Of a stretch of 33,018 nt of DNA, positions 283-23,419 are shown piece after piece; position 1 is the first letter of the stretch; every line of letters begins with the position of its first letter. The notes beneath the pieces were generated by a model. It saw only the letters and a list, made by a program, of their open reading frames with translations. It had not been told where the DNA came from and ran no database searches. Made by a program: the position numbers and the translations under genes. The stretch comes from Chloroflexales bacterium (GTDB lineage: Bacteria > Chloroflexota > Chloroflexia > Chloroflexales > Chloroflexaceae), in contig JAAXUL010000002.1 in the NCBI GenBank assembly GCA_013336035.1, forward strand, positions 1-33,018, in the 5' to 3' direction.

Positions 283-1458
283 CTACAGACGCTGCCCCTG
301 GGGCTGGGCATCCCGAGCGATGGGCGCCAGCTCGGCGAACATAGCGAGGTAGCGCTCAGCAGCCGTCTCCCACGAGAAGCCGTGGGCGCGGGCGCGAGCC
401 TGCTCGCCCATACGCCGCGCCAGCGCCCGGTCGTGGGCGAAGGGGCGCAGATGATCGGCCAGCGCTTGTGCATCACCCCAGGGGATGATATTGCCCGTCA
501 CGCCCTCGGCCACCAGATCCCCGGCGCCGCCGGTGCGCGTGACGACAGAGGGCAGGCCGGCGGCCATGGCCTCGAGCGTGGCGACGCTCATACCTTCGTT
601 GTACGAGGGCAGCACAAAGACGTGGGCGGCGGCGTAATGGGCGGCGATCTGCTCGCGCGGCACATAGCCCACGAAGACGACCCGCTCGGCGACACCCAGG
701 CGGCGGGCCAGATCCTCGTTCGCCTGGCGCGCATCCCCCTCGCCGACAAGCTCCAGCTGTACGTCGAGGCCCTCGGTGGCCAGCCGGCGCACCGCCTCGA
801 TCAGGTGGTGCTGGCCCTTGCGCTCGATCAGGCGGGCGACGCAGATCAGGCGCAGCGGCCCGCCGTCGGCGATCGGCGCCGCCGGGAAGGCCTCGAGCTC
901 GACCCCGTTGGGCACAAGGTCGATGCGCAGCCCCGGCTTGACCGCGAGCATCATATCGGCCTCGCCCTGACATTTGGCCACCAGCCGGCTGGCGCCGCGC
1001 CAGATCGCCTTGATCGTCGGGGTCAGCAGCGGATAGAGCGCCCCATAGCGCCGCTCGAAGCCCGGGATGTCGGGGCCGCAGACGCGCAGGATATAGGGCA
1101 GGCCAGCCAGGCGGCGCAGCGCCAGGGCCACCCCGCCCGCCGGCACCGCGCTCCACGCGAAGACCAGGTCGTAGGGCGCCGCCCTGTGCAGCCGCAGGGC
1201 CGCGGGCAGCGCGCGGGCGGCGTAGGTCAGCAGCTCACGGTTGCTCGAGTGGTGGATATTCTGGTTATTGACCGGGACCTTATAGACGCACACACGCCCG
1301 GCGAAATGCTCGCGCTCGGCGCGGCGCCCGAGGGCCGCGGTCACAAGGTCGATCTCTAGCCCCGGCACAGCGGCGAGGCGAGCCAGAATGGCGCGGTTGA
1401 CCGTCCCGGTGCCGCCGCCCAGGGGCGGGAACTCGTTGTTGAGCATCAGGATGCGCAC
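283..1458 (-). CDS. Glycosyltransferase family 4 (GT-B) protein
   Basis: 391 aa; N-terminal MRILMLNNEFPPLGGGTGTVNR, C-terminal PSYNEGMSVATLEAMAAGLPSVVTRTGGAGDLV, typical of the GT4 donor-binding region. Confidence 0.9.
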   Translation of the reverse strand: MRILMLNNEFPPLGGGTGTVNRAILARLAAVPGLEIDLVTAALGRRAEREHFAGRVCVYKVPVNNQNIHHSSNRELLTYAARALPAALRLHRAAPYDLVFAWSAVPAGGVALALRRLAGLPYILRVCGPDIPGFERRYGALYPLLTPTIKAIWRGASRLVAKCQGEADMMLAVKPGLRIDLVPNGVELEAFPAAPIADGGPLRLICVARLIERKGQHHLIEAVRRLATEGLDVQLELVGEGDARQANEDLARRLGVAERVVFVGYVPREQIAAHYAAAHVFVLPSYNEGMSVATLEAMAAGLPSVVTRTGGAGDLVAEGVTGNIIPWGDAQALADHLRPFAHDRALARRMGEQARARAHGFSWETAAERYLAMFAELAPIARDAQPQGQRL

Positions 1459-2634
1459 TTAGTCTCGCCCCCACACCCGCCGCACCACATAGAGCGGGCG
1501 GGCCTTGACCTCCTCGAAGATGCGGCCGACGTACTCGCCGATCACGCCGATCGTGATCAGCTGGATGCCCGAGAGGAAGAAGATCGCGACGACCAGGGTG
1601 GCGAAGCCGGGCGGCGAGAGGCCGACGGTCAGCTTCTGGATAGTGTAGAAGATCGCGATCAGGATCGACATCAGCGAGACGGTGACCCCGGCAAGCGAGA
1701 TCAGCCGCAGCGGCACATAGCTGAACGAGATCAGCCCGTCGAGAGCCAGGTAGATCAGCCGGGTGAGCGTGTACTTGGGCTTGCCGGCGTGGCGGGCGTG
1801 GCGCTCGTAGGCCAGGCCGGTCTGGCTGAGGCCGACCCAGCTGCGGATGCCGCGCACAAAGCGGTTGCGCTCGGGCATACCGTTCAGCAGATCGACGACG
1901 CGGCGGTCCATAATGCAGAAGTCGCCGGCGTCGAGGGGGATGTCGATGTTGGCGACGCGCTTGAGCATTCGATAGAAGAGGTTGTAGGCGGCCCGCTTGA
2001 GCGGCCCCTCTTTGCGCTGCTCGCGGATGGCGTAGACCACATCGTAGCCCTCGCGCCACTTCGCGATAAACTGCGGCAGCACCTCGGGCGGGTCCTGGAG
2101 GTCGCCGTCCATGATGATCACGGCCTGGCCGCGGGTGTGGTCGAGCCCGGCGCTGATCGCGACCTGGTGGCCGAAGTTGCGGGCCAGGTCGACCACGATC
2201 ACCCGCGGGTCATCGGCGGCGATCTGCCGCAGCATGGGCAGGGTGTGGTCACGGCTCCCGTCGTTGACAAAGAGGATCTCGAAGCGCAGGCCCAGGGGGC
2301 TCAGCGCCGCCACCAGCCGCGTGTAGAGGGCGGGGAGGTTCTCCTCCTCGTTGTAGGCCGGGATGACGACTGACAGATCAAGCGCGTCGCCCCGCCTGGC
2401 CCGGTCCGCCGACCTGTCGGCAGGCGCGTGCTGCGCGAGGCCCAGGCCGAGGGCGCCAGCGTCGGCAAGCTGGGCCAGAGCCCGACAGAAGCGCAGGGCG
2501 GCCTGCGGGTCATCGGTGGGGATACCGGTGAAGGCCGTGGGGGGCGTCGCCTGGCCGGCATGCTCGCCTGGCTCCCAGGCCACATCACGCTCGCGCTGTT
2601 CCTGTTCAGCAACCGCCTGTGGCATTGCGATCAT
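1459..2634 (-). CDS. Glycosyltransferase family 2 with C-terminal TM helices (DPM1/GtrB-like polyprenyl-phosphate glycosyltransferase)
   Basis: LSVVIPAYNEEENLPALYTRL, FVNDGSRDHT, MDGDLQDPPEV, followed by two hydrophobic helices. The N-terminal ~90 aa are low-complexity, so the start is uncertain. Abuts the GT4 gene. Confidence 0.88.
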   Translation of the reverse strand: MIAMPQAVAEQEQRERDVAWEPGEHAGQATPPTAFTGIPTDDPQAALRFCRALAQLADAGALGLGLAQHAPADRSADRARRGDALDLSVVIPAYNEEENLPALYTRLVAALSPLGLRFEILFVNDGSRDHTLPMLRQIAADDPRVIVVDLARNFGHQVAISAGLDHTRGQAVIIMDGDLQDPPEVLPQFIAKWREGYDVVYAIREQRKEGPLKRAAYNLFYRMLKRVANIDIPLDAGDFCIMDRRVVDLLNGMPERNRFVRGIRSWVGLSQTGLAYERHARHAGKPKYTLTRLIYLALDGLISFSYVPLRLISLAGVTVSLMSILIAIFYTIQKLTVGLSPPGFATLVVAIFFLSGIQLITIGVIGEYVGRIFEEVKARPLYVVRRVWGRD

Positions 2635-2807
2635 CTTTCGCTCGAAAGAAGAACTGGAGCCTCGCGCCCATTATTCGTTCGCAAGCTCTATGGTGCAATA
2701 GCCTGATCGTCCTGAGCAAGAGCAGAGCTAGTGGCGGGTCCTATCTGGGCAGGGCGGATGGCGGCCTCAGCATACCATGTGCCCATTACACGCTAAACAG
2801 GCCCGGC

Positions 2808-2816
2808 TGGTATAAT
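2808..2816 (+). promoter_or_regulatory. Extended -10 promoter element TGGTATAAT
   Basis: Exact TGnTATAAT about 70 nt upstream of the 2885 CDS. Confidence 0.6.
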
Positions 2817-2884
2817 CCGGCCTGAGCCGACAAAGGCCGGCCGGTAGCGGATCAGCCGGCTGAGACCATCTTTCGAGGCGCCCT

Positions 2885-3097
2885 ATGAACTGCTGGCACT
2901 GCGAGCGCCCGGCCCACGGGGTCTGCGCCTTCTGCGGGCGGGCCGTCTGTCGCGACCATGCCCAAGAACTGCCCCACATCGTCGCCCTCTACAAGGACCA
3001 GAAGGGCGCCCAGAAGGCCGTCGTCACCGCCCGCGCACTCTTCTGCGGCGTCTGCGAGCCGCGCGAGGACCCGGTTGATATGCCTGAGCTGAAGTGA
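2885..3097 (+). CDS. Small Cys/His-rich zinc-binding protein (B-box-like)
   Basis: 70 aa; MNCWHCERPAHGVCAFCGRAVCRDH...FCGVCEP, multiple CxxC/H pairs; promoter-like TATAAT upstream. Confidence 0.7.
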   Translation: MNCWHCERPAHGVCAFCGRAVCRDHAQELPHIVALYKDQKGAQKAVVTARALFCGVCEPREDPVDMPELK

Positions 3098-3118
3098 GCC
3101 AGAGGTGGGCCTTCAGCT

Positions 3119-5512
3119 CTATCGTGTTACCGGCGTGGCGCGGCGCGTGTAGGCCGCGCGGATGGCCCGCAGCATCTCCTCGAGCTCGAAGGGCTTACGC
3201 AGCACCTCGGCGGCCCCCAGGTGCAGGGCCTCGGCCTGCTGCGAGCTCGTCGTCTGGCCGGTGAGGATGAGGACGCGGGCCTCGGGGTCGTAGGCGCGCA
3301 GCTCGCGCAGCAGCTCGAGCCCGCCCATCCCGGGCATGGCCATGTCGCTCAGCACAATATCGAACTCGCCCGCCTTGAAGGCGTCGAGGGCGCTCTGGCC
3401 GTCGCCGTAGACACTGACGCTGTGGCCGATCTGCTCGAGCAGCCGCTTGAGCGAGCGCTGGATGGTAAGGTCATCATCGACCAGCAGGATGCGCAGGTTG
3501 GGCAGCTCGGCGGGCTCGCGCTCGGCCTCGGCCAGGGCCGCCGCCGCCTCGGGCGTCTCGATCACCGGCAACCTGATCACCATAGTCGTGCCCTTACCGG
3601 GCTCGCTGTCCACATCGAACGAGCCGCCGTGGCTCTTCACGATGCCGTAGGAGACCGAGAGCCCCAGGCCGGTGCCGGGTGTCGCGCTGCCGCCCAGGGC
3701 GCCCTTAGTGGTGAAGAAGGGCTCGAAGATCTTATCGCGGATGTGGTCAGGGATGCCTGAGCCGGTGTCGCGCACGCTGAGCGTGATCCCCGAGCGCTCG
3801 TCGCCATCGAGGGTCACGTGCAGGGTGCCGCCCTTCGGCTTCATGGCGTCGCGGGCGTTGGTCAGCAGATTCAGGAAGACCTGCGAGATCTGGCCGGCGT
3901 CGCAGATCGTCAGGGGCACCGGGTTGATGTCGCGAACGATCTGGATGTTGTGCTTGCGCAGCTCGATCTCCATCAGGATCAGCGTGCCCTGGATAGCATC
4001 GTAGAGGTCAGCCAGCTCGCGCCGCGGCTCCTGGCGGCGGGCGAAGGTGAGCAGGCTGCCGGTAATGCTCTTGCCGCGCTTGCAGGTATCAACCACAACC
4101 TTGAGCGACTCGTTCTTGGTCTCGTCCTCGGGGCTGGCCAGGCCCAGCTGGGCGTAGCCGAGCATGCCGCCGAGCAGATTATTGAACTCGTGGGCGATGC
4201 CCGCGGCGAAGGTGCCCACGGCGGCCAGCTTCGAGGACTGGATCAGCTCGGCCTGCGACTCCTGGAGCCTGCGGAACAGGCGGGCGTTGGCGATCACCGT
4301 GGCGGCCTGGCGGGCGAAGGCCATCAGGACGCGCTGCTCGTCCTCGTTCAGACCGCGGATCTCGGCGAAGGTGAGGCAGATCGCGCCCATGACGCGCTTC
4401 TCGTCGACCAGGGGGATGCAGACCAGGGCATTCCAGAAGATCCCCTGGGTCAGCTCGGGCAGGGGCGCGAGGGTCTGGGTATGCTGGTCGGTGAACATCA
4501 CCACGCGCTGGCGTCCGAGGACAGCCTCGTAGCTTTTAGGGAGGGGCACCGGATAGGGCCCGGGGCCATCGGCGGCCACGGGCAGATTATGGGCGGCGAC
4601 CATAGTGGGCAGCTGCTGGTCATCGAGCAGCACCACCCAGCCGTTCGCGGCGCTCATCAGCTCGGCCAGGCGGTCAACGAGCATCTGGAGCATCGTGGAC
4701 ATATCGCGGATGGTGATCAGGGCGATCATCAGGCTCTGGAGCCGCTCGAGCTTGCTGGAGAGGGCGGTCGAGTCGGCCACCAGGCTGCGGACCTCGTTGC
4801 TGACCCGGATCACCTCGCTCTGGCTGCGCAGAGCGTTCTGGAAGAGGATCATCGGCACGATGCCGAGGAGCACAGCGATGCCGTTGACCTGCCAGAGCAG
4901 GGCGAGCAGGCCGCCGAGCGGAGAGAGAAGCAGGACGAACCAGCGCATCTCGCCCTCGCGCATACGCATGCCCTCACGCAGAGGCTGGCCCTCGGTCAAG
5001 AAAGCCAGGCCGGCGACCGCGGCCCGCTCGATCAGGTAGAAGAGGGCGCCGGTGAGGAACAGCACGGCCAGGGCAAGGATAGTGGTGTAGGGCAGGGCGC
5101 CCACCCCCGCCTCGACAGCCCAGCCCTCGAGGCTCAGGACAGCCAACGCCTTGCCGACGGCGGCGGCCAGCCAGCGCACCGCCACGGTCGAGGCGATCTG
5201 CCACCACTCCTGATCACGAGCGAGGGCGGCGCAGCAGGTGCCGATCAAGATAGCGGCCAGCAGCATCGGCCAGGAGAGCGCGGTCAGAGCGGCGATGAGG
5301 ACGGCCACAGCGATAGTGACAAGACGCCCGTTCTCCATCTCGAAGGCCGTCAGATCGGCCACGGTGAGCATCACCGTGAAGATCAGGGCCGCGAGCAGCT
5401 CGGTCAAGGTAGGGACGCGCCAGACGAGGACAAGAATGCCGAGGCCGACCGTAATGGCTATGCACCACAGTCCTATGAGATAGTATCGTGCTGGCGAGGG
5501 GAGAGCGCGCAT
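3119..5512 (-). CDS. Hybrid sensor histidine kinase (N-terminal TM region, GAF, HisKA, HATPase, receiver)
   Basis: 797 aa; multiple N-terminal hydrophobic helices, H-box GIAHEFNNLLGGMLGY, N-box NLLTNARDAM, DTGSGIP, GTGLGLSVSYGIV, receiver ILLVDDD...LSDMAMPGMGG...ILTGQ. Confidence 0.93.
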   Translation of the reverse strand: MRALPSPARYYLIGLWCIAITVGLGILVLVWRVPTLTELLAALIFTVMLTVADLTAFEMENGRLVTIAVAVLIAALTALSWPMLLAAILIGTCCAALARDQEWWQIASTVAVRWLAAAVGKALAVLSLEGWAVEAGVGALPYTTILALAVLFLTGALFYLIERAAVAGLAFLTEGQPLREGMRMREGEMRWFVLLLSPLGGLLALLWQVNGIAVLLGIVPMILFQNALRSQSEVIRVSNEVRSLVADSTALSSKLERLQSLMIALITIRDMSTMLQMLVDRLAELMSAANGWVVLLDDQQLPTMVAAHNLPVAADGPGPYPVPLPKSYEAVLGRQRVVMFTDQHTQTLAPLPELTQGIFWNALVCIPLVDEKRVMGAICLTFAEIRGLNEDEQRVLMAFARQAATVIANARLFRRLQESQAELIQSSKLAAVGTFAAGIAHEFNNLLGGMLGYAQLGLASPEDETKNESLKVVVDTCKRGKSITGSLLTFARRQEPRRELADLYDAIQGTLILMEIELRKHNIQIVRDINPVPLTICDAGQISQVFLNLLTNARDAMKPKGGTLHVTLDGDERSGITLSVRDTGSGIPDHIRDKIFEPFFTTKGALGGSATPGTGLGLSVSYGIVKSHGGSFDVDSEPGKGTTMVIRLPVIETPEAAAALAEAEREPAELPNLRILLVDDDLTIQRSLKRLLEQIGHSVSVYGDGQSALDAFKAGEFDIVLSDMAMPGMGGLELLRELRAYDPEARVLILTGQTTSSQQAEALHLGAAEVLRKPFELEEMLRAIRAAYTRRATPVTR

Positions 5513-9796: not shown

Positions 9797-11710
9797 ATGC
9801 AGCACACCAAGATACCGAGAAACCTCACACTTGCGCTTGTCCTCGCGCTAGCACTACCGATTCTTGCCGCCTGCGCCGGCGGCACCCCTCCGGCGGCCTC
9901 ATCGACCGCCACCCCTGCCACGGCGACAGAGGCCGCCGCGGCGACAGAGGCCCCCGCGGCGACAGAGGCCCCCGCGGCGACAGAGGCCCCCGCGGGCGGC
10001 CCGGCCCAATCCCCAATTAACGACAAGGTGCTTGTATACGGCATCAACCAGGCGCCCGACACGCTGTTCGGCTATGAGACCCAGTCGTCGGCGAGCTACA
10101 ATGTTCTGGTCGGCCTCGGCTACTGCATCAAGACGCTCAGCTACGACTACCAGCCGACCTACTGCTTCGACGAGTACCCGACCCTCGAGAACGGCGGCGC
10201 GGTCAGCGCGACCGTGACGATCGACCCGGCGGCTATCTCGGTTGACAAGCCGATCATCGTCGGCGGCAACGTGATCACCGACACCACGCTGGCCGAGACC
10301 AGCGGGATCACGATCCCGAGCGAGCTAAGCCAGCTGACGCTCACCTACAACCTGAACCCCGACCTCAAGTGGGAGGACGGCACGCCGGTCACATCGGCCG
10401 ACGTGATCGAGAGCTTCCGCATCCAGAAGGATCCCGCGCTCCAGATTACAACCCGCTACTACATCGACCGCACGTGGACGGTGGAGGGGCCCGACGCGCA
10501 GACGGTCGTCATCACCATGGCGCCCGGCTACCTCGAGTCCAACTACTACTGGGCCAGCTGGCCCGGCGTGTCCCCGGCGCACCTCTATAACGGCAAGTCG
10601 ATCGACGAGATCCGGGCGGCCGAGAGCGAGCACCCCTTCTCGTACGGGCCGTACATGGTGCAGGAGAACAAGCCCAACGAGTCGACGACGCTGGTCTCGA
10701 ACCCGTACTTCACGCCACAGCCGAAGATCGGCACGGTGATCTTCAAGTATGTGAGCGACACCAACCAGCTGCTGGCGCAGGCCGAGAGCGGCGACATCGA
10801 CGTCATCGGCACGATCGGCCTGGGCCTCTCGGATGTGCCGAAGCTCGACGATCTGGAGGCGGCCGGCAAGCTCACGGCGCAGTATGTGCCGGCGTCGGTG
10901 TGGGAGCATATCGACTTTGGCGTCCAGCGCGGCGACGGCGAGAAGCCGTTCTTCGACGATGTGAAGGTGCGCCAGGCGGTCGCCTACGGCACCAACCGCC
11001 AGGAGATCATCGAGAAGGTGCTGTACGGCAAGACGACGGTGATGAACTCCTATCTGCCGGGCGATCACCCGTCGTTTGCGAAGACCGGCCTGGACGACTA
11101 TGCGTTCGATCTCGCGAAGGCCAAGGCGCTGCTGGACGAGGCGGGCTGGGCGGCTGGCGCGGATGGCATCCGCGAGAAGGACGGCCGCAAGCTCGCGTTC
11201 ACGCTCTACACGACCGAGGGCAACGCGACGCGCAAGGCGGTGACCGAGGTGATCCAGCAGCAGTGGAAAGAGCTGGGCATCGACCTGAAGCTCGAGTACG
11301 TGCCCGGCCCGGCAGTGCTGTTCAAGAGCGGCGCGGAGGGCCTCCTGGCCGGCCGGCGCTTCGACACGGCGCTGTACGCCTGGCAGTCGAACCCCGAGCC
11401 ATCGCACAACCTGTACATCTGCAGCGAGATCCCGACCGAGGAGAACGGCTACGTCGGGCAGAATAACCCCGGCTACTGCAGCGCGGAGTTCGACGCGGCC
11501 GCCAAGGCCGCGCAGACGGAGCTGGACAAGGCCAAGCGGCTGGAGCTCGACGCGGTGCCGCAGCAGATCTGGAACAAAGACCTGCCGGCGCTGCCGCTCT
11601 ACCAGCGCCCGCAGATCGCCACGGTCAGCCCGAGGGTGACCGGCGTCGTCATCGACCCGACCAGCCTGTACGACCTCTACAACATCGAAGAGATCGACAT
11701 CAGCGAGTAG
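9797..11710 (+). CDS. ABC transporter substrate-binding lipoprotein, family 5 (peptide/oligopeptide)
   Basis: 637 aa; lipobox LPILAACAGG; Thr/Ala/Glu/Pro linker; SBP_bac_5 architecture (LTYNLNPDLKWEDGTPVTSADVIESF, VRQAVAYGTNRQEIIEKVLYG). Confidence 0.93.
   Translation: MQHTKIPRNLTLALVLALALPILAACAGGTPPAASSTATPATATEAAAATEAPAATEAPAATEAPAGGPAQSPINDKVLVYGINQAPDTLFGYETQSSASYNVLVGLGYCIKTLSYDYQPTYCFDEYPTLENGGAVSATVTIDPAAISVDKPIIVGGNVITDTTLAETSGITIPSELSQLTLTYNLNPDLKWEDGTPVTSADVIESFRIQKDPALQITTRYYIDRTWTVEGPDAQTVVITMAPGYLESNYYWASWPGVSPAHLYNGKSIDEIRAAESEHPFSYGPYMVQENKPNESTTLVSNPYFTPQPKIGTVIFKYVSDTNQLLAQAESGDIDVIGTIGLGLSDVPKLDDLEAAGKLTAQYVPASVWEHIDFGVQRGDGEKPFFDDVKVRQAVAYGTNRQEIIEKVLYGKTTVMNSYLPGDHPSFAKTGLDDYAFDLAKAKALLDEAGWAAGADGIREKDGRKLAFTLYTTEGNATRKAVTEVIQQQWKELGIDLKLEYVPGPAVLFKSGAEGLLAGRRFDTALYAWQSNPEPSHNLYICSEIPTEENGYVGQNNPGYCSAEFDAAAKAAQTELDKAKRLELDAVPQQIWNKDLPALPLYQRPQIATVSPRVTGVVIDPTSLYDLYNIEEIDISE
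9923..9994 (+). repeat. Four 18-bp tandem repeats encoding the (ATEAPA)n linker of the lipoprotein
   Basis: GCGACAGAGGCCSCCGCG x4, contiguous. Confidence 0.9.
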
Positions 11711-11728
11711 GGTCTCTGCAGGGCTAGC

Positions 11729-11756
11729 GCGAGGGGCGGGCGTGCGCGCCCCTCGC
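11729..11756 (+). terminator. Intercistronic hairpin between SBP and permease genes
   Basis: GCGAGGGGCG (11729-11738) pairs with CGCCCCTCGC (11747-11756); 8-nt loop. Confidence 0.55.
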
Positions 11757-11847
11757 AACAATTGCTCTAAAGCCGGAGAAGGGGGAGCCTGGAGATAATC
11801 TTCCGGCCCCCCTTACCAACTAATTCTGGGAAGAGGAGCACAAAGCG

Positions 11848-12915
11848 ATGGCGACATTCTTAGTTCGACGCCTGTTTCAAATGTCTCTTGTGCTCTTAAT
11901 ATCTACATTTGTAATCTTTATGATCCTGAGCCTGGTGCCGGGCGGGCCGCTCGACAGCCTGCGCCAGAATACCGACCCACGTAGGCGCCCGAGCGAGGCC
12001 GACATCAAGCGCATGGAAAAGGCCATGGGCATCGACAAGCCCTGGCAGCTCCAGTATGTCACCTGGATGCTGGGCGACACCTGGCTCGAGAAGGTCGGGC
12101 TGCCGCAGTACGAGGGCAAGCGACGTGGCATCATCCGTGGCGACCTGGGGGTGTCGTGGAAAGTCAACAGCAACAAGCCGGTGCTCGAGATCATCGGCGC
12201 GCGCCTGCCGGATACGCTGCGCCTGATGATCACCGCCACCCTGCTCTCGATCTTGCTGGCGATCCCGATCGGCATCTACTCGGCGGTGCACCAGTACTCG
12301 CCCGGCGACTATATCTTTACGACGATTAGCTTCATCGGGATCTCGCTACCCTCATTCTGGTTCGGCCTCATGCTCATCGCCGCGATGCTGGCGCTCAAGC
12401 GCAACGGATTGTTCTCGTTGCCGACCGGCGACGTGGTCGCCCTGCGCGACTACGTGGTGCTGGGCCTGGGCAAGATCCAGGCCGGCTCGTTCCTCGACCG
12501 GACGCTGCGCCTGGCGATGCCGGTGACGGTGCTGACGCTGATCAATATGGCGGGCTACAGCCGCTTCTTGCGCTCATCGATGCTCGAGGTGCTCAAGCAG
12601 GACTATGTGCGCACGGCGCGCGCCAAAGGGGTGCGCGAGCGGCTGGTGGTGCTCAAGCACGCGATGCGCAACGCGCTGATCCCGCTGATTACGATTATTG
12701 TCTATACGATCCCGGCCATCTGGGGCGGCGCGCTGATCACCGAGTCGATCTTCAACTACAAGGGCCTTGGCTGGCTCTACATCCAGGCCCTTGGCCAGCA
12801 GGACTGGCCGATCGTCACGGCATTCCTGCTGGTGCAGGCGATCCTGGTGGTGTTCGCCAATATGCTCGCCGATGTGCTCTATACGGTCGCCGATCCGCGG
12901 ATTCGTCTTTCGTGA
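11848..12915 (+). CDS. Peptide ABC transporter permease (DppB/OppB family)
   Basis: 355 aa; FLVRRLFQM..., SLVPGGPLDSL, YVRTARAKGVRERLVVLKHAMRNALIPLITI (EAA-type loop). Confidence 0.93.
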   Translation: MATFLVRRLFQMSLVLLISTFVIFMILSLVPGGPLDSLRQNTDPRRRPSEADIKRMEKAMGIDKPWQLQYVTWMLGDTWLEKVGLPQYEGKRRGIIRGDLGVSWKVNSNKPVLEIIGARLPDTLRLMITATLLSILLAIPIGIYSAVHQYSPGDYIFTTISFIGISLPSFWFGLMLIAAMLALKRNGLFSLPTGDVVALRDYVVLGLGKIQAGSFLDRTLRLAMPVTVLTLINMAGYSRFLRSSMLEVLKQDYVRTARAKGVRERLVVLKHAMRNALIPLITIIVYTIPAIWGGALITESIFNYKGLGWLYIQALGQQDWPIVTAFLLVQAILVVFANMLADVLYTVADPRIRLS

Positions 12916-12926
12916 GGGGGTAGATT

Positions 12927-13823
12927 ATGGCCCTTGTAGCGCCGCGAATCGAGGGTGCCGAGCTACTTGACAAAGAGATCGAAAGCCCATGGCGGCTGGT
13001 GGTTCGGCGCTTCCTGCGCCACCGTCTGGCCGTCTTCAGCCTGATCGTCCTACTCGTTATTATCGGTATGACGATCGCGGCGCCGATTGTCACCTGGCAT
13101 GACCCGAACTTCCAGGTGCTGGATCTTAAAGATCAGCCGCCGTCGGCCGACCATATCATGGGGACCGACTATATCGGCCGCGACATCTATGCCCGCGTGG
13201 TCTACGCCGGGCGAGTGTCGCTGGGTATCGCGTTCTCGGTCGTGCTGCTCTCCAGCGCCTTCGGGATTGTAGTGGGTGTGGTCAGCGGCTTCTTCGGCGG
13301 CTGGGTCGACGCGCTGCTGATGCGGATCGTCGACTTCATGCTAACCCTCCCGTTCCTGCCAATCTTGCTGGTGGTGATCACCATCTTCTCGCCAAGCATC
13401 CCGCTGCTGATCTTTGTGCTGGTGGTGACCGGCTGGACCGGTACGGCGCGCCTGCTCCGCGGCCAGATCTTGAGCCTGCGCGAGCAGACATTCGTCGAGG
13501 CGTCGCGGGCGCTCGGCGCGTCGCGCGGGCGGATCATGTTCCGCCACCTGGTGCCAAACGCGCTCGCCCCGATCATCGTGACGATTACGCTTGGCCTGAG
13601 CGATATTGTGATCACCGAGGCGGCCCTGAGCTTCCTGGGGTTCGGCGTGCAGCCGCCCAACGCCTCGTGGGGCAATATGCTCCAGGGCGTGACGCTGACA
13701 GTGCTCGACAAGTATCCGTGGCAAGCGTTCTACCCTGGCCTGGCGATCTTTATCACCTCGCTGACGGTCAACTTCCTAGGCGACGGCCTGCGCGACGCGC
13801 TTGACCCGCGGCAGAAGATGTAG
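12927..13823 (+). CDS. Peptide ABC transporter permease (DppC/OppC family)
   Basis: 298 aa; HIMGTDYIGRDIYARVVYAGRVSLGIAF, FVEASRALGASRGRIMFRHLVPNALAPIIV. Confidence 0.93.
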   Translation: MALVAPRIEGAELLDKEIESPWRLVVRRFLRHRLAVFSLIVLLVIIGMTIAAPIVTWHDPNFQVLDLKDQPPSADHIMGTDYIGRDIYARVVYAGRVSLGIAFSVVLLSSAFGIVVGVVSGFFGGWVDALLMRIVDFMLTLPFLPILLVVITIFSPSIPLLIFVLVVTGWTGTARLLRGQILSLREQTFVEASRALGASRGRIMFRHLVPNALAPIIVTITLGLSDIVITEAALSFLGFGVQPPNASWGNMLQGVTLTVLDKYPWQAFYPGLAIFITSLTVNFLGDGLRDALDPRQKM

Positions 13824-13899
13824 CGCAGAGGCCAGGGGCGCCTCGACCCCACCATGTGACCGAACCGAAATACCTATTCTCCAAGTTACAGGGGCTTAT

Positions 13900-14973
13900 G
13901 TGGCAGCATCGTCAAGTGTAGCCGTGTCGCTCGCGAAGCAGAGCCATACCACGGGCCAGGCGGATATCCTGCTCGAAGTGCGGGGGCTGAAAACCCATTT
14001 CTATACTGAAGATGGGGTCGTTCAGGCGGTAGATGGTGTTGACCTGACCCTGCGCCGCGGCGAGACGCTGGGGGTGGTCGGCGAGAGCGGCAGCGGAAAA
14101 AGTGTCACGGCGCTCTCGATCATGCGGCTGATCATCCCGCCGGGTAAGATCGTCGATGGCGAGATCCTCCTCGACGGCAACAACCTGCGCGACCTGGGCG
14201 ACGAAGAGATGCGCCAGATGCGCGGCAGCCGCATCTCGATGATCTTCCAGCAGCCGACAACCTGCCTCAACCCGGTCTTTAAGGTTGGCGACCAGGTGAA
14301 GGAGGCGCTGTATATCCACCAGGGGATGTCCAGCGAGGAGGCGCGCAATCGCGCGATCGAGCTGTTCCGTATGGTCGGCCTGCCCGACCCGGCACGCCGG
14401 CTTGACCAGTACCCCCACGAGCTGTCGGGCGGGCAGTGTCAGCGGGTGATGATCGCGATGGCGCTGGCGTGCAACCCCGAGCTGCTGATCGCCGATGAGC
14501 CGACAACTGCGCTCGATGTGACGATCCAGGCCCAGATCCTGGACCTGATGCGCGCCCTGCGCGAGAGCATCGCGACGGCCATCCTCCTGATCACGCACGA
14601 TATGGGCGTTGTGGCCGAAATGTGCGACAACGTGATAGTCATGTACGCCGGCCAGGTGATCGAGTACGCCGATGTGCGCAGCCTCTTCGCCAACCCGAAG
14701 CACCCTTACACCGAGGGGTTGCTGGCGTCGGTGCCGGTGCTAGGCAAGATCAGCGACGATCTAGCGACGATCCCCGGCACGGTGCCGAGCCTGATCAAAC
14801 CGCCCCAGGGTTGCCACTTCGCCGGACGCTGCGCCTACCGCTTTGAGCGGTGTGACGAGCCGCCACCGCTGTACGATCTGGCCGGCGGGCGCAAGTCGCG
14901 CTGCTGGATCCATCGCAACGGCGAGGTAGATCTGAAAGAGCAGAAACGCACCGAGGTGTCAGACATTACGTGA
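13900..14973 (+). CDS. Peptide ABC transporter ATP-binding protein (DppD/OppD family)
   Basis: Walker [17 protein letters not shown], Walker [14 protein letters not shown]-terminal oligopeptide domain. ORF extends to 13801; GTG at 13900 chosen as a plausible start. Confidence 0.9.
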
Positions 14974-14989
14974 TTATGAGGCACAAGCG

Positions 14990-16033
14990 ATGACGGCTTC
15001 AGCGCAACCCAAGCAGTCCAAAGATATGTTGATCGAGGTCGATAACCTCGTCAAATACTTTCCAATCAAAGGCGGCCTGCTGCGCCGTACAATCGCGCAG
15101 GTCAAGGCAGTGGACGGCGTCAGCTTCGCGGTTCGGCGCGGCGAGACGCTTGGGCTGGTTGGCGAGAGCGGCTGCGGCAAGACGACGACCGGGCGGACGA
15201 TCCTGCGCCTCGAGCAGCCGACCGGCGGCAAGGTGATCTTCGACGGCAAGGATGTCTTCGCGGCCCCATCCAGCCAGCTGAAGGCGCTGCGCCGCGATAT
15301 GCAGATCATCTTCCAGGATCCGTACTCCTCGCTCGACCCGCGCGTGACGATCGGCGAGAGCATCGCCGAGGGGCTGGTGATCCACAATCTCGGCAGCCCG
15401 AAGGAGCGGGTCGCGAAGGTGCGCCAGATGCTGGCCAAGGTCGGCCTGCACCCGAGCCATATGCAGCGCTTCCCGCACGAGTTCTCCGGCGGCCAGCGCC
15501 AGCGGATCGGCATCGCGCGCGCGCTGGTGATGGAGCCCAAGCTGATCGTCTGCGACGAGCCGGTGTCGGCGCTCGATGTGAGCATCCAGTCGCAGGTGCT
15601 GAACCTGCTGCGCCGCCTGCAAGGCGAGTTCGGCCTGACCTACCTGTTCATCGCCCACAACCTGAGCGTCGTCGAGCATATCAGCGACCGGGTGGGGGTG
15701 ATGTACCTGGGCAAGCTAGTCGAGCTGGCCGATCGCGAGGATCTGTTCCGCGACCCGAAGCACCCGTACACCAGGGCGCTGATCTCGGCGATCCCGATCC
15801 CGGACCCGACGATCCGGCGCGAGCGGATCATCTTGCAGGGTGACGTGCCGAGCCCGGTGAATCCGCCCTCGGGCTGCCGCTTCCATCCGCGCTGCTGGCT
15901 AGCGCGCGATATCTGTAGGCAGGTCGATCCGCCGTTCGAGGAGAAGGCGTCCGGCCACTGGGCGGCGTGCCACTTCTCAGATAAGGTCGAGGAGCCCCTG
16001 CCAAAGAGCGGCGCCGCGGCGACGCTAGCCTAG
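14990..16033 (+). CDS. Peptide ABC transporter ATP-binding protein (DppF/OppF family)
   Basis: 347 aa; [48 protein letters not shown]. Confidence 0.94.
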
Positions 16034-17798: not shown

Positions 17799-17820
17799 AG
17801 GCTACCCCACGCTCACCGCG
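17782..17820. terminator. Bidirectional terminator-like hairpin at convergent gene ends
   Basis: CGCGGTG/CACCGCG outer stem and GGGGTA/TACCCC inner stem spanning both stop codons. Confidence 0.55.
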
Positions 17821-18446
17821 CCTAGCACCGTCTGCCAGGCCGCGTCAACCTGGGCGCGGGTCTCAGCCTGGGACCCGCCGTTATCGATCACCACCGTCGC
17901 GTAGGGCAGACGCGAGGCCTGGGGGGCCTGGGCGGCGATGCGCTGGCGCGCCTCGGCCTCGCTCATGCCGCGCGTGGTCCGCAGCCGCTCGACCTGCTGC
18001 TCCTCGGGGCAGGTCACCACCCAGACCTGCGCGCACTCGCTCACCCACCCTGACTCGATCAGCTTGATCGCGTCGATCACGACCACGGGCCGGCGCAGGG
18101 CGCCCAGCCGCGTGCCGTAGCCGCCGGCCCGGCCAACCTCCTCGATGAAGGCCCAGATCTCGGCCCGCACCGCCGGGTGGACCAGCAGCTCGAGCTGGCG
18201 CAGCTTCGCCGGGTCGCTGAAGACGATCGCGCCGAGCTTGCGCCGGTCGAGGGCGCCATTGGGGCTGAGCACCCCGGCGCCGAAGGCGGCCACGATCTGC
18301 TGGAAGGCGGGGGCGCCCGGCTGCTGGACCCTGTGGGTCACCCGGTCGGCGTCGATGATGCGGGCGCCCAGGGCCGCGAGCATCGCCAGCACAGTACTCT
18401 TGCCGCAGGCGATCCCGCCGGTCAGGCCGATCAGAAACGGTTTCAC
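17802..18446 (-). CDS. coaE: Dephospho-CoA kinase
   Basis: 214 aa; FLIGLTGGIACGKSTVLAML, IIDADRVTHRV, PNGALDRRKLGAIVF, VVIDNGGS. GTG start. Confidence 0.95.
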   Translation of the reverse strand: MKPFLIGLTGGIACGKSTVLAMLAALGARIIDADRVTHRVQQPGAPAFQQIVAAFGAGVLSPNGALDRRKLGAIVFSDPAKLRQLELLVHPAVRAEIWAFIEEVGRAGGYGTRLGALRRPVVVIDAIKLIESGWVSECAQVWVVTCPEEQQVERLRTTRGMSEAEARQRIAAQAPQASRLPYATVVIDNGGSQAETRAQVDAAWQTVLGAVSVG

Positions 18447-18479
18447 AGCATCTCCGAGGTGCCGCCCCCAGGGGCGGAG

Positions 18480-20453
18480 CTACTCCATCTCGACGTACTC
18501 CTGCTTCACCAGGGCGCTCTCGTCCAGGCCGGCCAGAGCGAGCAGCTCGCCGATCAGCTCAGCCCGCTCGGCGGCGTCACGGCTGCTCCATGTGCGGGTC
18601 TTGATCTCGAGGTACGGGCCGGGGTTGGCGCCACCGCCCACCATGGTATCAAGGTTGATCGCGAAGTCGTGGTCCTTGTACATGATCCGCCAGCGCTTGC
18701 GGCGTTTCTCGAGCTCGACCACCTTGTCGGGCTGGAAGTACTCGCGATAGAATCGCCCGGTGTGGTCGGCGGGGGCCGTGTAGCGGGCCCGCGAGAGCAC
18801 GATGGCGTGGGGGTACTCGCCGCGCACCGCCTCGGCCATCAGCGTGACCGTATACTTCGGCTCGGGGCGCGCCCCCGGGTCGGTGCGGTGGTCCTCGCGG
18901 ATGCGGATGCGCTCGCGGTTCTTGAAGAGGAAGTAGGTGTCGTACTGGGTGCGCACGCTGGCCTTGGTGATCTCGACCTGGGGGCTGGCCAGAATATGCT
19001 CGACCTGCGGCTCGCCGCCGGGGCCGAGGAGGGCCTTGACCTGGATCTCGAAGATCTCGGCTTGCCGCACGCCGCCCAGGGCGATGATCTTGGCCAGCAG
19101 GTCGCGCTCGCGGCTGGCCAGGAAGGCGTTGATGCGCTCGGCGATGGCCTGCGAGCGCCTCATTATCTCGCCCTCGTCGAGGGTCAGCAGGGCCTGGCCA
19201 CGCACCAGGAGGCGCCCGTCCACCAGCACATCGCGAACATCGGCCGCGTGGGCGCTGTAGACCAGGTACGAGTAGATGGCCTCGGGGCTGTAGGTGTAGC
19301 GCGGCGCGCTGTGGAGCCGGCCCAGCTCGATCACGGCGATATCGGCCCGCTTGCCGAGCTCGAGCGAGCCCACCAGATGGTCGAGGTGCACCGCCTTCGC
19401 GCCCCAGCAGGTGGCCAGGGCCAGGGCCTCGCGGGCCGGCACGGCCGTGGGGTCGCCGCTCACGCCCTTGGGCAGCAGGGCGGCCAGCTGGATCTCGGTG
19501 AACATGTCCTGGTCATCGTTCGAGGCCGGGCCGTCGGTGCCGAGGCCCGTGCGCACGCCCGAGTCGATCAGGCGGCGGTACGGGGCGATGCCGCTGGCCA
19601 GCTTCAGGTTGCTGGTGGGGCAGGGCACCGCGCCGGCCTTCGCCTCGCGCAGCAGGCGCATATCGTCCTCGGTGGCGTGCGTACAGTGCGCGGCGATGCA
19701 GGGCACGTCAAAGGCGCCGACCCGCTTCGCGTAGCGAATGGGCGTCACCTCGCGCTCCCTGATGCTCTCCTCTACCTCGCGAGCCGTCTCGGAGAGGTGG
19801 GTGACCAGGGGCACGCCGAAGCGGCGGCAGAGGGCCGAGGCCTCGCGGTAGATGCGGTCGGTGCAGGTGTAGGGGGCGTGAGGGGCGACGGTGGGCACGA
19901 TGCGCTCGTGGTCGCGCCAGGCCTCGATAAAGCGCCGGGCCCGCTCGAGGCCCTCGTCGAACGAGGCGGCGTCGGGGGTGGGCAGGCGCATAACGGTCTG
20001 GCCGCAGATGGCGCGCATGCCGGCCTCATCCGCGGCGCGGGCCACCTGCTCCTCGAAGTAGTACATATCGACGAAGGTCGTCGTGCCGCCGCGCAGCATC
20101 TCGGCGCACGAGAGCAGCGTGCCGACGTAGCAGAACTCGGCGTCGACAAACTGGCTCTCGACGGGAAACATATAGCCAAATAGCCAGACGTCGAGCTGCT
20201 GGTCGGCAACCATGCCGCGCAGCAGGCTCATCGGCACGTGGGCGTGGCCGTTGATCAGGCCGGGGATGACCGCGCACCCCGTACAGTCGATCGTCTCGCG
20301 GGGGGTGAAGCGGTCGGCAAGCTCGGCGGCGGGGCCGACGGCGACGATCTGGCGGCCCTGGACAGCGACGGCCCCATCGGGCACGATCGTCCAGCTCGCG
20401 TCCATCGTCACCACGGTGCCGCCGGTCAGCAGCAGGTCCACCGTCTGGGTCAT
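18480..20453 (-). CDS. Amidohydrolase (SAH/MTA/5'-deoxyadenosine deaminase-like) with C-terminal CYTH-like domain
   Basis: 657 aa continuous ORF. aa 1-455: GLINGHAHVPMSLLRG, LVTHLSE, IAAHCTHA, GTDGPASND. aa ~465-657: EIFEIQVKAL, QYDTYFLFKNRERIRIRED, VVELEKRRKRWRI, INLDTM, YLEIKTRTWS, LDESALVKQEYVEM, resembling CYTH. Confidence 0.85.
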   Translation of the reverse strand: MTQTVDLLLTGGTVVTMDASWTIVPDGAVAVQGRQIVAVGPAAELADRFTPRETIDCTGCAVIPGLINGHAHVPMSLLRGMVADQQLDVWLFGYMFPVESQFVDAEFCYVGTLLSCAEMLRGGTTTFVDMYYFEEQVARAADEAGMRAICGQTVMRLPTPDAASFDEGLERARRFIEAWRDHERIVPTVAPHAPYTCTDRIYREASALCRRFGVPLVTHLSETAREVEESIREREVTPIRYAKRVGAFDVPCIAAHCTHATEDDMRLLREAKAGAVPCPTSNLKLASGIAPYRRLIDSGVRTGLGTDGPASNDDQDMFTEIQLAALLPKGVSGDPTAVPAREALALATCWGAKAVHLDHLVGSLELGKRADIAVIELGRLHSAPRYTYSPEAIYSYLVYSAHAADVRDVLVDGRLLVRGQALLTLDEGEIMRRSQAIAERINAFLASRERDLLAKIIALGGVRQAEIFEIQVKALLGPGGEPQVEHILASPQVEITKASVRTQYDTYFLFKNRERIRIREDHRTDPGARPEPKYTVTLMAEAVRGEYPHAIVLSRARYTAPADHTGRFYREYFQPDKVVELEKRRKRWRIMYKDHDFAINLDTMVGGGANPGPYLEIKTRTWSSRDAAERAELIGELLALAGLDESALVKQEYVEME

Positions 20454-20497: not shown

Positions 20498-20528
20498 GAG
20501 AGGCGCGACATAAGGCGTGGTTAGGCCA

Positions 20529-20537
20529 TGCTATACT
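20529..20537 (+). promoter_or_regulatory. Extended -10 TGCTATACT upstream of hisC
   Basis: 30 nt upstream of ATG 20567; shows that the ORF-track start at 20528 is probably too far upstream. Confidence 0.55.
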
Positions 20538-20566
20538 GGGGTCGCCTTAAGCACCAGGAGGGATCG

Positions 20567-21661
20567 ATGTTCACCGCCGCGAGCCTGATCCGCCCCGAGA
20601 TCACCGATCTCGAGCCGTACACGCCGATCCTGCCGCTGGATGTGCTGGCCGCCCGGCTGGGGCTGCCGATCGAGCGGCTGGTGAAGATGGACGCCAACGA
20701 GAACCCCTACGGCCCCTCGCCGAAGGCCCTGGCGGCCCTCGCCGGCGAGGCGTTCTACCATATCTACCCCGACCCGGGGCACACCCGGCTGCGCGCCGCC
20801 CTGGCCGAGTACACCGGCCAGCCCGCCGAGCGCATCCTGGTCGGCGCCGGCGCCGACGAGCTGATCGACCTTATCTTGCGCCTCTGCATCGCCCCCGGCG
20901 ATGCCGTGATCGACTGCCCGCCCACCTTCGGCATGTACAGCTTCGACGCCGGCGTCTGCGGCGGGCGCGTGATCCGCGCCCCGCGCCGCGCCGACTTCTC
21001 GCTCGACCTCCCGGCGATCGAGCAGGCCGCCGCGGCCAGCGGCGCCAAGGTGCTCTTCCTCACTTCGCCCAACAACCCCACCGGCAACCTGATGCCGCCC
21101 GAGGATCTAGAGCGCCTGCTGCGCCTGCCCCTGCTGGTGGTCGTCGACGAGGCCTACGTCGAGTTCGCGGGGGTCGGCCAGGGCTTCGCGCCCTGGGCGG
21201 GCCGGCACGAGAACCTGGCCGTCCTGCGCACCTTCAGCAAGTGGGCGGGGCTGGCCGGGCTGCGCGTCGGCTACGGCCTGCTGCCCCCCTGGCTGGCCGA
21301 GCAGCTCTGGAAGATCAAGCAGCCCTACAATGTGAGCGTGGCTGGCCAGGAGGCCGCCATCGCCTCGCTCGAGGACCGCGCCCACCTGCTCGGCAATGTG
21401 GCCCGCATCGTGGCCGAGCGCGAGCGCCTGCTGCCCCTCCTGGCCGAGCTGCCCTACCTGCGCCCCCACCCCAGCGCCGCCAACTTCATCCTCTGCCGCG
21501 TCGACGGCCGGAGCGCCGGCGAGCTGAAGCAGGCCCTCGAGCGCCAGGGCGTGCTGGTGCGCTACTACCACAGCGCCCTGCTGCGCGACTATATCCGCGT
21601 CAGCGCGGGCACCCCCGAGCAGAGCGAGGCGCTGCTTGGGGCGCTGCGCGAGCTTGCGTGA
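20567..21661 (+). CDS. hisC: Histidinol-phosphate aminotransferase
   Basis: KMDANENPYGPSPKAL, GAGADELIDLILRL, LTSPNNPTGNLMP, RTFSKWAGLAGLRVGY; SD AGGAGGG precedes ATG 20567. Confidence 0.94.
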   Translation: MFTAASLIRPEITDLEPYTPILPLDVLAARLGLPIERLVKMDANENPYGPSPKALAALAGEAFYHIYPDPGHTRLRAALAEYTGQPAERILVGAGADELIDLILRLCIAPGDAVIDCPPTFGMYSFDAGVCGGRVIRAPRRADFSLDLPAIEQAAAASGAKVLFLTSPNNPTGNLMPPEDLERLLRLPLLVVVDEAYVEFAGVGQGFAPWAGRHENLAVLRTFSKWAGLAGLRVGYGLLPPWLAEQLWKIKQPYNVSVAGQEAAIASLEDRAHLLGNVARIVAERERLLPLLAELPYLRPHPSAANFILCRVDGRSAGELKQALERQGVLVRYYHSALLRDYIRVSAGTPEQSEALLGALRELA

Positions 21662-21678
21662 GCCGCGGGGCGCCACCG

Positions 21679-21687
21679 TGGTACACT
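21679..21687 (+). promoter_or_regulatory. Extended -10-like TGGTACACT upstream of hisN-like gene
   Basis: 43 nt upstream of ATG 21730. Confidence 0.4.
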
Positions 21688-21729
21688 AGGCCCGACTGAC
21701 ATCGACCCTTTCTCCAGAGGACCCATATC

Positions 21730-22500
21730 ATGGCCGACGAGCTGCGCGAGCTGCTTGACTTTGCCCACCAGATCGCCTGGCAGGCCGGCAAGATCACCCT
21801 GCGCTACTTCCAGGGCGAGCTAGCCATCGACCGCAAGGCCGACGAGTCACCCGTTACTGTCGCCGACCGCGAGTCCGAGGCCTTCCTGCGGGCCGCGATC
21901 AGCGCCCGCTACCCCGACCACGCCATCCTCGGCGAGGAGGAGGGCCTCACCGGCGGCGAGGGCGCCACCTACCGCTGGATCCTCGACCCCATCGACGGCA
22001 CCAAGACCTTCGTGCGCGGCGTGCCCCTCTACGGCGTGATGGTGGGCCTGCTGCGCGAGGGCCAGCCGGTTGTCGGCGCGGTCAATGTGCCCGCCATGGG
22101 CGAGGTCGTCTACGCGGCCAAGGGCCACGGCTGCTGGTGGAACGGCCGCCCGTGCCGCGTCTCGCAGGTGCCCAGCCTGGGCGAGGGCCTGGTGGTGGCC
22201 ACGGTCGCCCACCGCTACGAGCGCTACGGCAAGGCCGAGCGCTTCCAGCGCATCCTCGAGGCCTGCGGCCTCTTCCGCACCTGGGGCGACTGCTACGGGT
22301 ACCTGCTGGTCGCCACCGGCCGCGCCGAGGTGGCCCTCGACCCGGCCATGAATATCTGGGACGCCGCCGCGCTCCTGCCCATCCTCGAGGAAGCCGGGGG
22401 CACCTTCACCGACTGGCAGGGCGTCGCTACGGTCGAGGGCAACGAGGCCATCAGCACCAACGGCGCCGTCTTCAAAGAGCTGATGGAGCTGATCAAGTGA
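21730..22500 (+). CDS. hisN: Inositol-monophosphatase-family phosphatase, probable histidinol-phosphatase (HisN type)
   Basis: [60 protein letters not shown]; positioned between hisC and hisB. Confidence 0.85.
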
Positions 22501-22826
22501 TGGATGCAAACGACTACCAGCGCCTCGCCCTGCGCACCGAGGCCCCCGGCCGCGAGCGCGACGACCGGCTGCTCAACGCCGCCCTTGGCCTCTGCGGCGA
22601 GGCGGGCGAGTTCGCGGATGCGCTGAAGAAATGGCGCTTCCACGCGCACCCCCTCGACGAGGTCGCGCTGCGCAAAGAGCTCGGCGACGTGCTCTGGTAC
22701 GCCGCCCTGGCCTGCGACGCCCTGGGCCTGCAGCTGGGCGACGTGATGGCCGAGAATATCGAGAAGCTTCGCCGCCGCTACCCCGAGGGGTTCTCCGCCG
22801 AGCGCAGCCTGAACAGGGCCGAGTGA
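22500..22826 (+). CDS. MazG-like nucleotide pyrophosphohydrolase
   Basis: [17 protein letters not shown]...[48 protein letters not shown]; overlaps neighbours as TGATG at both ends (visible in frame inside ORF 22137..22826). Confidence 0.85.
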
Positions 22827-23419
22827 TGAGCCAGCGCACCGCCACGATCAGCCGCACCACCGGCGAGACCGAGATCAGCCTCGCCCTCAACCTTGACGGC
22901 GGCGGCCAGGCCGCGATCAGCACCGGGGTCGGCTTCCTCGACCACATGCTGACCCTGTGGGCCAGGCACGGCCTCTTCGACCTGAGCGTCAGCGCCCGGG
23001 GCGACCTGCATGTCGACGAGCACCACACGGCCGAGGATACCTGCATCTGCCTGGGGCGCGCCATCGACCAGGCCCTCGGCGAGCGACGGGGCATCGTGCG
23101 CACCGCCCATAGCTTCGTGCCGATGGACGAGGCCCTGGCCCTGGTGGCCGTGGACCTCGGGGGGCGCCCGTACTGCGTGGTGCAGGCCGAGTTCGCCACG
23201 CCGCGCGTCGGCCAGCTCGGCACCGACCTGGTGTTCCACCTGCTCGAGAGCATCGCCACCCACGGCCGGCTCAACCTTCACGCCCAGGTGCTCTACGGGC
23301 GCAACGACCACCACAAGGTCGAGGCGATCTTCAAGGCCCTCGGCCGGGCCCTCGATGCCGCCACCCGCCCGGACCCGCGCCTCGCCGACGCCATCCCCAG
23401 CACGAAAGGGGTCCTCTGA
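22826..23419 (+). CDS. hisB: Imidazoleglycerol-phosphate dehydratase
   Basis: [55 protein letters not shown]. Confidence 0.96.

Follow-up and report, generated by a model that had tools for sequence, protein, structure and literature searches.

A Chloroflexota protein family in which a nucleoside deaminase is fused to a triphosphate-tunnel domain with a replaced acidic patch

The window analysed here, a stretch of 33,018 nucleotides at the start of contig JAAXUL010000002.1 of a Chloroflexales bacterium (GCA_013336035.1), harbors on its minus strand one continuous open reading frame of 657 amino acids (18480..20453). ORF analysis, Pfam and a profile search across the phylum identify the product as a deaminase-TTM fusion protein composed of an MTA/SAH/adenosine-type deaminase domain of the amidohydrolase superfamily (aa 1-440, 19134..20453), a helical linker (aa 441-462, 19068..19133) and a CYTH/triphosphate-tunnel (TTM) domain (aa 463-657, 18483..19067), all encoded on the minus strand. 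Both domains are already known; what appears to be new is their obligate pairing, together with the fixed exchange of the tunnel's acidic patch for neutral to basic residues. The first-pass annotation had noted the same single 657-codon ORF and knew of no description of the domain pair; likewise, a literature search returned no paper on an amidohydrolase-CYTH fusion, and a database entry for the architecture may exist.

The possibility that a frameshift or an assembly error has joined two genes, named in the first-pass annotation as a finding that would overturn its reading, is favoured by the unusual architecture and nothing else; its probability is negligible and it has been ruled out. With the C-terminal 195 amino acids as query, 57 of 61 related genomes are matched, mostly in open frames of 660-760 aa, and open fused frames are also present in single-contig genomes. 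The phylum profile search, which admitted E-values up to 1e-6, places the fusion family in 89 of 399 Chloroflexota genomes, with all matches sharply separated from the rest at 221 bits or more (E <= 1.4e-65 for the weakest). The open frames holding these matches measure about 650-840 aa in all except two cases, both of which are frames running off contig edges; such contig-end exceptions aside, the fused state is constant across Chloroflexia and Anaerolineae-type genomes. In a sample of 19 genomes, the fusion-bearing ones match the N domain with an identity of 48% or more, always in fused form, whereas those devoid of the fusion contain solely more distant, unfused amidohydrolases of at most 36% identity. 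The score gap, the constant fusion and the distance of the unfused amidohydrolases thus mark one discrete protein family.

Among the 80 relatives kept out of 150, all but one carry Chloroflexota labels (Chloroflexales, Herpetosiphonaceae, Anaerolineae, Thermoflexales and others). The sole non-Chloroflexota match among the relatives listed, of about 50% identity, is located on a 2650-bp contig of a Thiohalocapsa MAG (L064), which is probably misbinned. Unfused amidohydrolase paralogues of the N domain are found in the source genome as well, at 2255-3511 (+) of contig C1086 (39% identity) and 874-2181 (-) of contig C704 (37% identity). In a Kouleothrix draft contig (L062, 688-2544) a PPDK_N (PEP-synthase-like) frame is continuous with the last two thirds of a tunnel domain; this is probably an assembly chimera and could alternatively be another fusion. 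Antisense to the fusion gene runs an open frame of 668 aa (window 18177-20183, plus strand) with a low-complexity translation, which has the appearance of a GC-rich gene's shadow frame and not of a gene in its own right.

The deaminase assignment is based on Pfam, NCBIfam, PDB profile and Foldseek comparisons. Pfam Amidohydro_1 covers aa 62-415 (E 1.4e-67), and in the PDB the family profile ranks the MTA/SAH deaminase 4f0r (E 3e-134) above TM0936 and other deaminases of adenosine type. The full-length model (pLDDT 91.9, pTM 0.85) superposes on 4dzh, 3lnp, 4gbd, 4dyk and 4f0r with Foldseek E-values of about 1e-47 and TM-scores of 0.94-0.97 over the target. The fusion protein stays under every NCBIfam cut-off among the families shown, with 433 of 540 bits for PRK09045, 331 of 522 for PRK07228 and 245 of 779 for PRK15493, and for this reason no single substrate is assigned. 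The metal ligands H70-x-H72 (20238..20246, minus strand), H219, H256 and D307 as well as the catalytic Glu E222 are invariant both in 57 aligned homologues and in an alignment of 81 sequences, bearing out the HxH, H, H, D ligand set of a nucleoside deaminase recognized earlier. The active-site residues W90, E99 and H192 are likewise invariant in both sets; the Trp and Glu nine residues apart and the His that precedes the third metal ligand by 27 residues are presumably equivalent to the substrate residues of TM0936 and provide a lead. Common fold and catalytic residues are shared with the MTA/SAH deaminases (PDB codes 4f0r, 4gbd and 4dyk; TM0936, 1p1m; 5'-deoxyadenosine deaminase PRK07228), of which 4f0r, along with 4dzh, shows about 36% identity to the fusion N domain in Foldseek. 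The solved MTA/SAH deaminases end near the position of fusion residues 440-445, whereas the Chloroflexota family continues with the C-terminal tunnel domain of 200 aa.

Judged from these residues, the deaminase site is intact and apparently belongs to a working enzyme, the substrate of which would be an adenosine-like nucleoside, namely 5'-deoxyadenosine, MTA, SAH or adenosine. SAH hydrolase and MTA phosphorylase exceed their cut-offs in 9/9 fusion-bearing genomes tested and MTA nucleosidase in 0/9. Fusion-negative genomes show a similar pattern, so that the salvage-gene set does not fix the substrate of the deaminase; it fits 5'-deoxyadenosine, an attractive candidate, without proving it. 5'-Deoxyadenosine is toxic and an inhibitor of radical SAM enzymes (PMC6079011), and its removal is therefore a plausible process to control.

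The CYTH/tunnel-like nature of the C-terminal domain, proposed in the first-pass annotation, is confirmed by Pfam and by the structural model. CYTH (PF01928) matches aa 469-632 of the whole protein with 27.9 bits and the isolated domain with 31.6 bits (cut-off 23.2), and is matched by 59 of 68 homologues at E <= 0.1. An AlphaFold2 model of the domain built from a 68-sequence alignment (pLDDT 92.4, pTM 0.87) finds SaTTM as its top PDB match in Foldseek (7ns9, E 7.4e-8, TM-score 0.61/0.69). Further matches are Pyrococcus CYTH proteins, AtTTM3, class IV adenylate cyclases, ygiF and thiamine triphosphatase, and the distantly related Mediator chains Med18/20 are found as well. Sequence searches of the PDB with the C domain or the family profile yielded no TTM match, and the fold assignment consequently rests on Pfam and on the model. 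Profile-profile comparison gives E 6e-4 at a probability of only 29% against canonical CYTH proteins (Chloroflexota copies) and E 2.8e-7 at 93% against a more diverse CYTH set. Taken as a confident model, the C domain is predicted to adopt the CYTH/triphosphate-tunnel fold.

Within this predicted tunnel the catalytic motifs are altered in a uniform manner, as counted over 81 non-redundant homologues. The hallmark ExExK, aligned from stand-alone CYTH proteins, is replaced by E469-x-Q471-x-K473 (19035..19049, minus strand) in 81/81. The earlier description of this motif as degenerate (EIFEIQVK) holds insofar as the hallmark is departed from; the departure itself is not random, as the same ExQxK is fixed throughout. 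R517-x-R519 (18897..18905, minus strand), aligned to the invariant triphosphate-clamping R-x-R of canonical CYTH proteins, is kept in 81/81. On the middle strand the canonical R-x-E is substituted by R555-x-R557 (18783..18791, minus strand; R555 in 79/81, R557 in 81/81), the position of R557 being Glu in 24/24 stand-alone CYTH proteins aligned. The second acidic pair E-x-E, which serves metals 1 and 2 in catalytic TTMs, corresponds to E616-x-K618 (18600..18608, minus strand), followed by R620 (81/81), in a register that is ambiguous by one pair: in the MAFFT and hhalign alignments the two functional glutamates of ygiF-type proteins face K618 and R620, and E616 would become the site-1 (substrate-metal) Glu if short-hairpin CYTH proteins, with their aromatic-hydrophobic-E-x-E pattern, are matched instead. 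Of the four acidic-patch glutamates by which characterised TTMs bind the catalytic metal, at least two and probably three are changed to Gln, Arg or Lys, with no exception in 81 homologues. In place of the Lys of the canonical T-L-K the fusion family mostly has M, T or I, while R517, R519, R567, K583, R585, R587, D602 and others are kept; among the retained residues K473, R517, R519 and R585 line the tunnel as basic residues in canonical relatives and are invariant in the fusion. In comparison to the phosphatases SaTTM, AtTTM3, ygiF and NeuTTM, the family thus shares the tunnel fold, the R-x-R clamp and many basic tunnel residues, and differs by ExQxK, E-x-K, the middle-strand Arg for Glu and the lost T-L-K lysine.

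The catalytic metal of ygiF (site 2) has as its ligands both ExExK glutamates and the second Glu of ExE, a further acidic-patch Glu contributes in AtTTM3, and mutants of several acidic-patch glutamates in AtTTM3 and ygiF are strongly reduced in activity (PMC4641920). Site 2 is therefore lost in the fusion family on any alignment considered. According to the published TTM mechanism, this makes it highly improbable that the protein is truly bifunctional, combining the deaminase with an ordinary CYTH triphosphatase, a thiamine triphosphatase or an adenylate cyclase, as the Pfam CYTH match and the TTM fold would allow: ExExK has become ExQxK and ExE has become ExK in 81/81. Moreover, class IV cyclases need an HF motif (HFxxxxExExK; PMC8233210), which is absent from aa 463-464, where R-Q is found and the residues vary among homologues. 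The bifunctional enzyme suggested in the first-pass annotation is accordingly disfavoured by replacements equivalent to the impairing AtTTM3/ygiF mutations, and we infer that its other suggestion, a CYTH domain serving as triphosphate sensor, is to be preferred. Ordinary TTM chemistry appears to be covered elsewhere, since most related fusion-bearing genomes contain a separate CYTH protein and ExExK and E-x-E are intact in 24/24 stand-alone copies aligned. Other long CYTH proteins are found in Chloroflexota in frames of 500-800 aa (L166, L167, L168, L171, L174, L178, L119, L138 and L144), of which those on L119, L138 and L144 resemble CYTH-CHAD types by eye.

Loss of site 2 does not necessarily entail loss of activity. 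Plant AtTTM1/2 (CYTH cluster 7), which are two-domain proteins with a TTM lacking ExExK and ExE like the fusion, still act and prefer pyrophosphate (PMC8233210), and yeast Vtc4, devoid of site 2, polymerises polyphosphate (PMC4641920; PMC9911596). The tunnel could therefore be active otherwise, as a Vtc4-like single-metal phosphotransferase or an AtTTM1/2-like pyrophosphatase, which we regard as unlikely. Vtc4p has basic residues in place of the acidic patch and needs R-x-R and one Glu (PMC4641920), these being R264/R266/E426 (PMC9911596). The fusion resembles it in its neutral to basic patch (Q471, R557, K618) and retained R-x-R, and at the plug-helix Lys position K or R is present in 66/81. 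This position, aligned to the catalytic K458 of Vtc4, is however not invariant, retention of the site-1 Glu (E616) hinges on the alignment register, and Pfam VTC is absent among the families matched at E <= 0.1 by 68 members. Unlike Vtc4, the fusion has a deaminase partner and neither an SPX nor a membrane domain; unlike AtTTM1/2, it has another partner domain and lacks their W/YxRxR motif, the residue two before R517 being R in 72/81. The ygiF-type TTM-CHAD fusions also join a TTM to a second domain, and ygiF shows higher activity at full length than as an isolated TTM domain (PMC6537752). In contrast to the family described here, they start with an active TTM which is followed by a polyphosphate-binding domain.

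Both halves of the protein are under similar purifying selection, with the tunnel constrained about as strictly as the deaminase. Over the 81 sequences, 14.1% of the N-domain columns, 18.2% of the linker columns and 15.4% of the C-domain columns are invariant, and the two halves agree closely in their pairwise distances (correlation r = 0.95). Five Nei-Gojobori comparisons, some of which are near saturation, put dN/dS at 0.08-0.14 in the N domain and at 0.05-0.25 in the C domain. In the linker, 4 of 22 columns are invariant (F444, R448, E449 and K455); the full-length model shows helices at 427-449 and 452-459, and PDB homologues of the N domain can be aligned only up to about aa 443. A linker as conserved as both domains would also suit a purely structural tunnel, that is, an oligomerisation or stability module no longer binding phosphate. 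Med18/Med20 of Mediator share the fold according to Foldseek, and we know of no catalytic role for them. The invariance of K473, R517, R519, R567, K583, R585 and R587 is more than a mere scaffold would need, so that this explanation is considered rather improbable.

Clustering of neighbours over about 80 fusion loci reveals none that recurs broadly, and no conserved neighbour pointing to phosphate metabolism. In the window, a gene judged from its sequence to be dephospho-CoA kinase-like (17802-18446, minus) starts about 34 bases downstream of the fusion gene, with which it shares the strand; the clustering gathered such a frame at just 8 of about 80 loci, and by eye one is also seen in L062. 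Divergent upstream genes of histidine type (20528-23419, plus) comprise a HisB dehydratase (Pfam IGPD) and, judging by their sequences, a hisC-like aminotransferase gene and an inositol-phosphatase-like one; the hisC-like gene was grouped in 6 of about 80 loci. At 9797-16033 (plus) Pfam identifies an oligopeptide-type ABC transporter row of one binding protein, two permeases and two ATPases.

TTM domains have mostly been known for their enzymatic activity. For the fusion family, we consider the chances about even that a deaminase is combined with a tunnel that binds a ligand without hydrolysing it and regulates or localises its partner; Vtc4, AtTTM1/2 and the Mediator subunits of the same fold may serve as precedents for altered TTMs. 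The metal-dependent amidohydrolase would deaminate an adenosine-like nucleoside while being permanently linked, via the conserved helical linker, to a tunnel which has lost its catalytic second-metal site and kept a basic phosphate-binding interior. This tunnel may bind polyphosphate, triphosphate or a nucleotide without hydrolysis and, once occupied, would allosterically tune or localise the deaminase, by which salvage of SAM-derived nucleosides would be coupled to the energy or phosphate state of the cell. The more specific proposal of an undescribed Chloroflexota regulatory family, in which a deaminase of SAM by-product nucleosides is gated by an inactivated TTM sensing a polyphosphate, triphosphate or nucleotide signal, is tentative, its probability lying somewhat below even. 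With its catalytic metal site exchanged in 81/81 homologues, this obligate fusion offers a clean and testable example of a TTM domain converted to ligand binding or regulation, and it may tie purine/SAM salvage to the phosphate or energy state in Chloroflexota.
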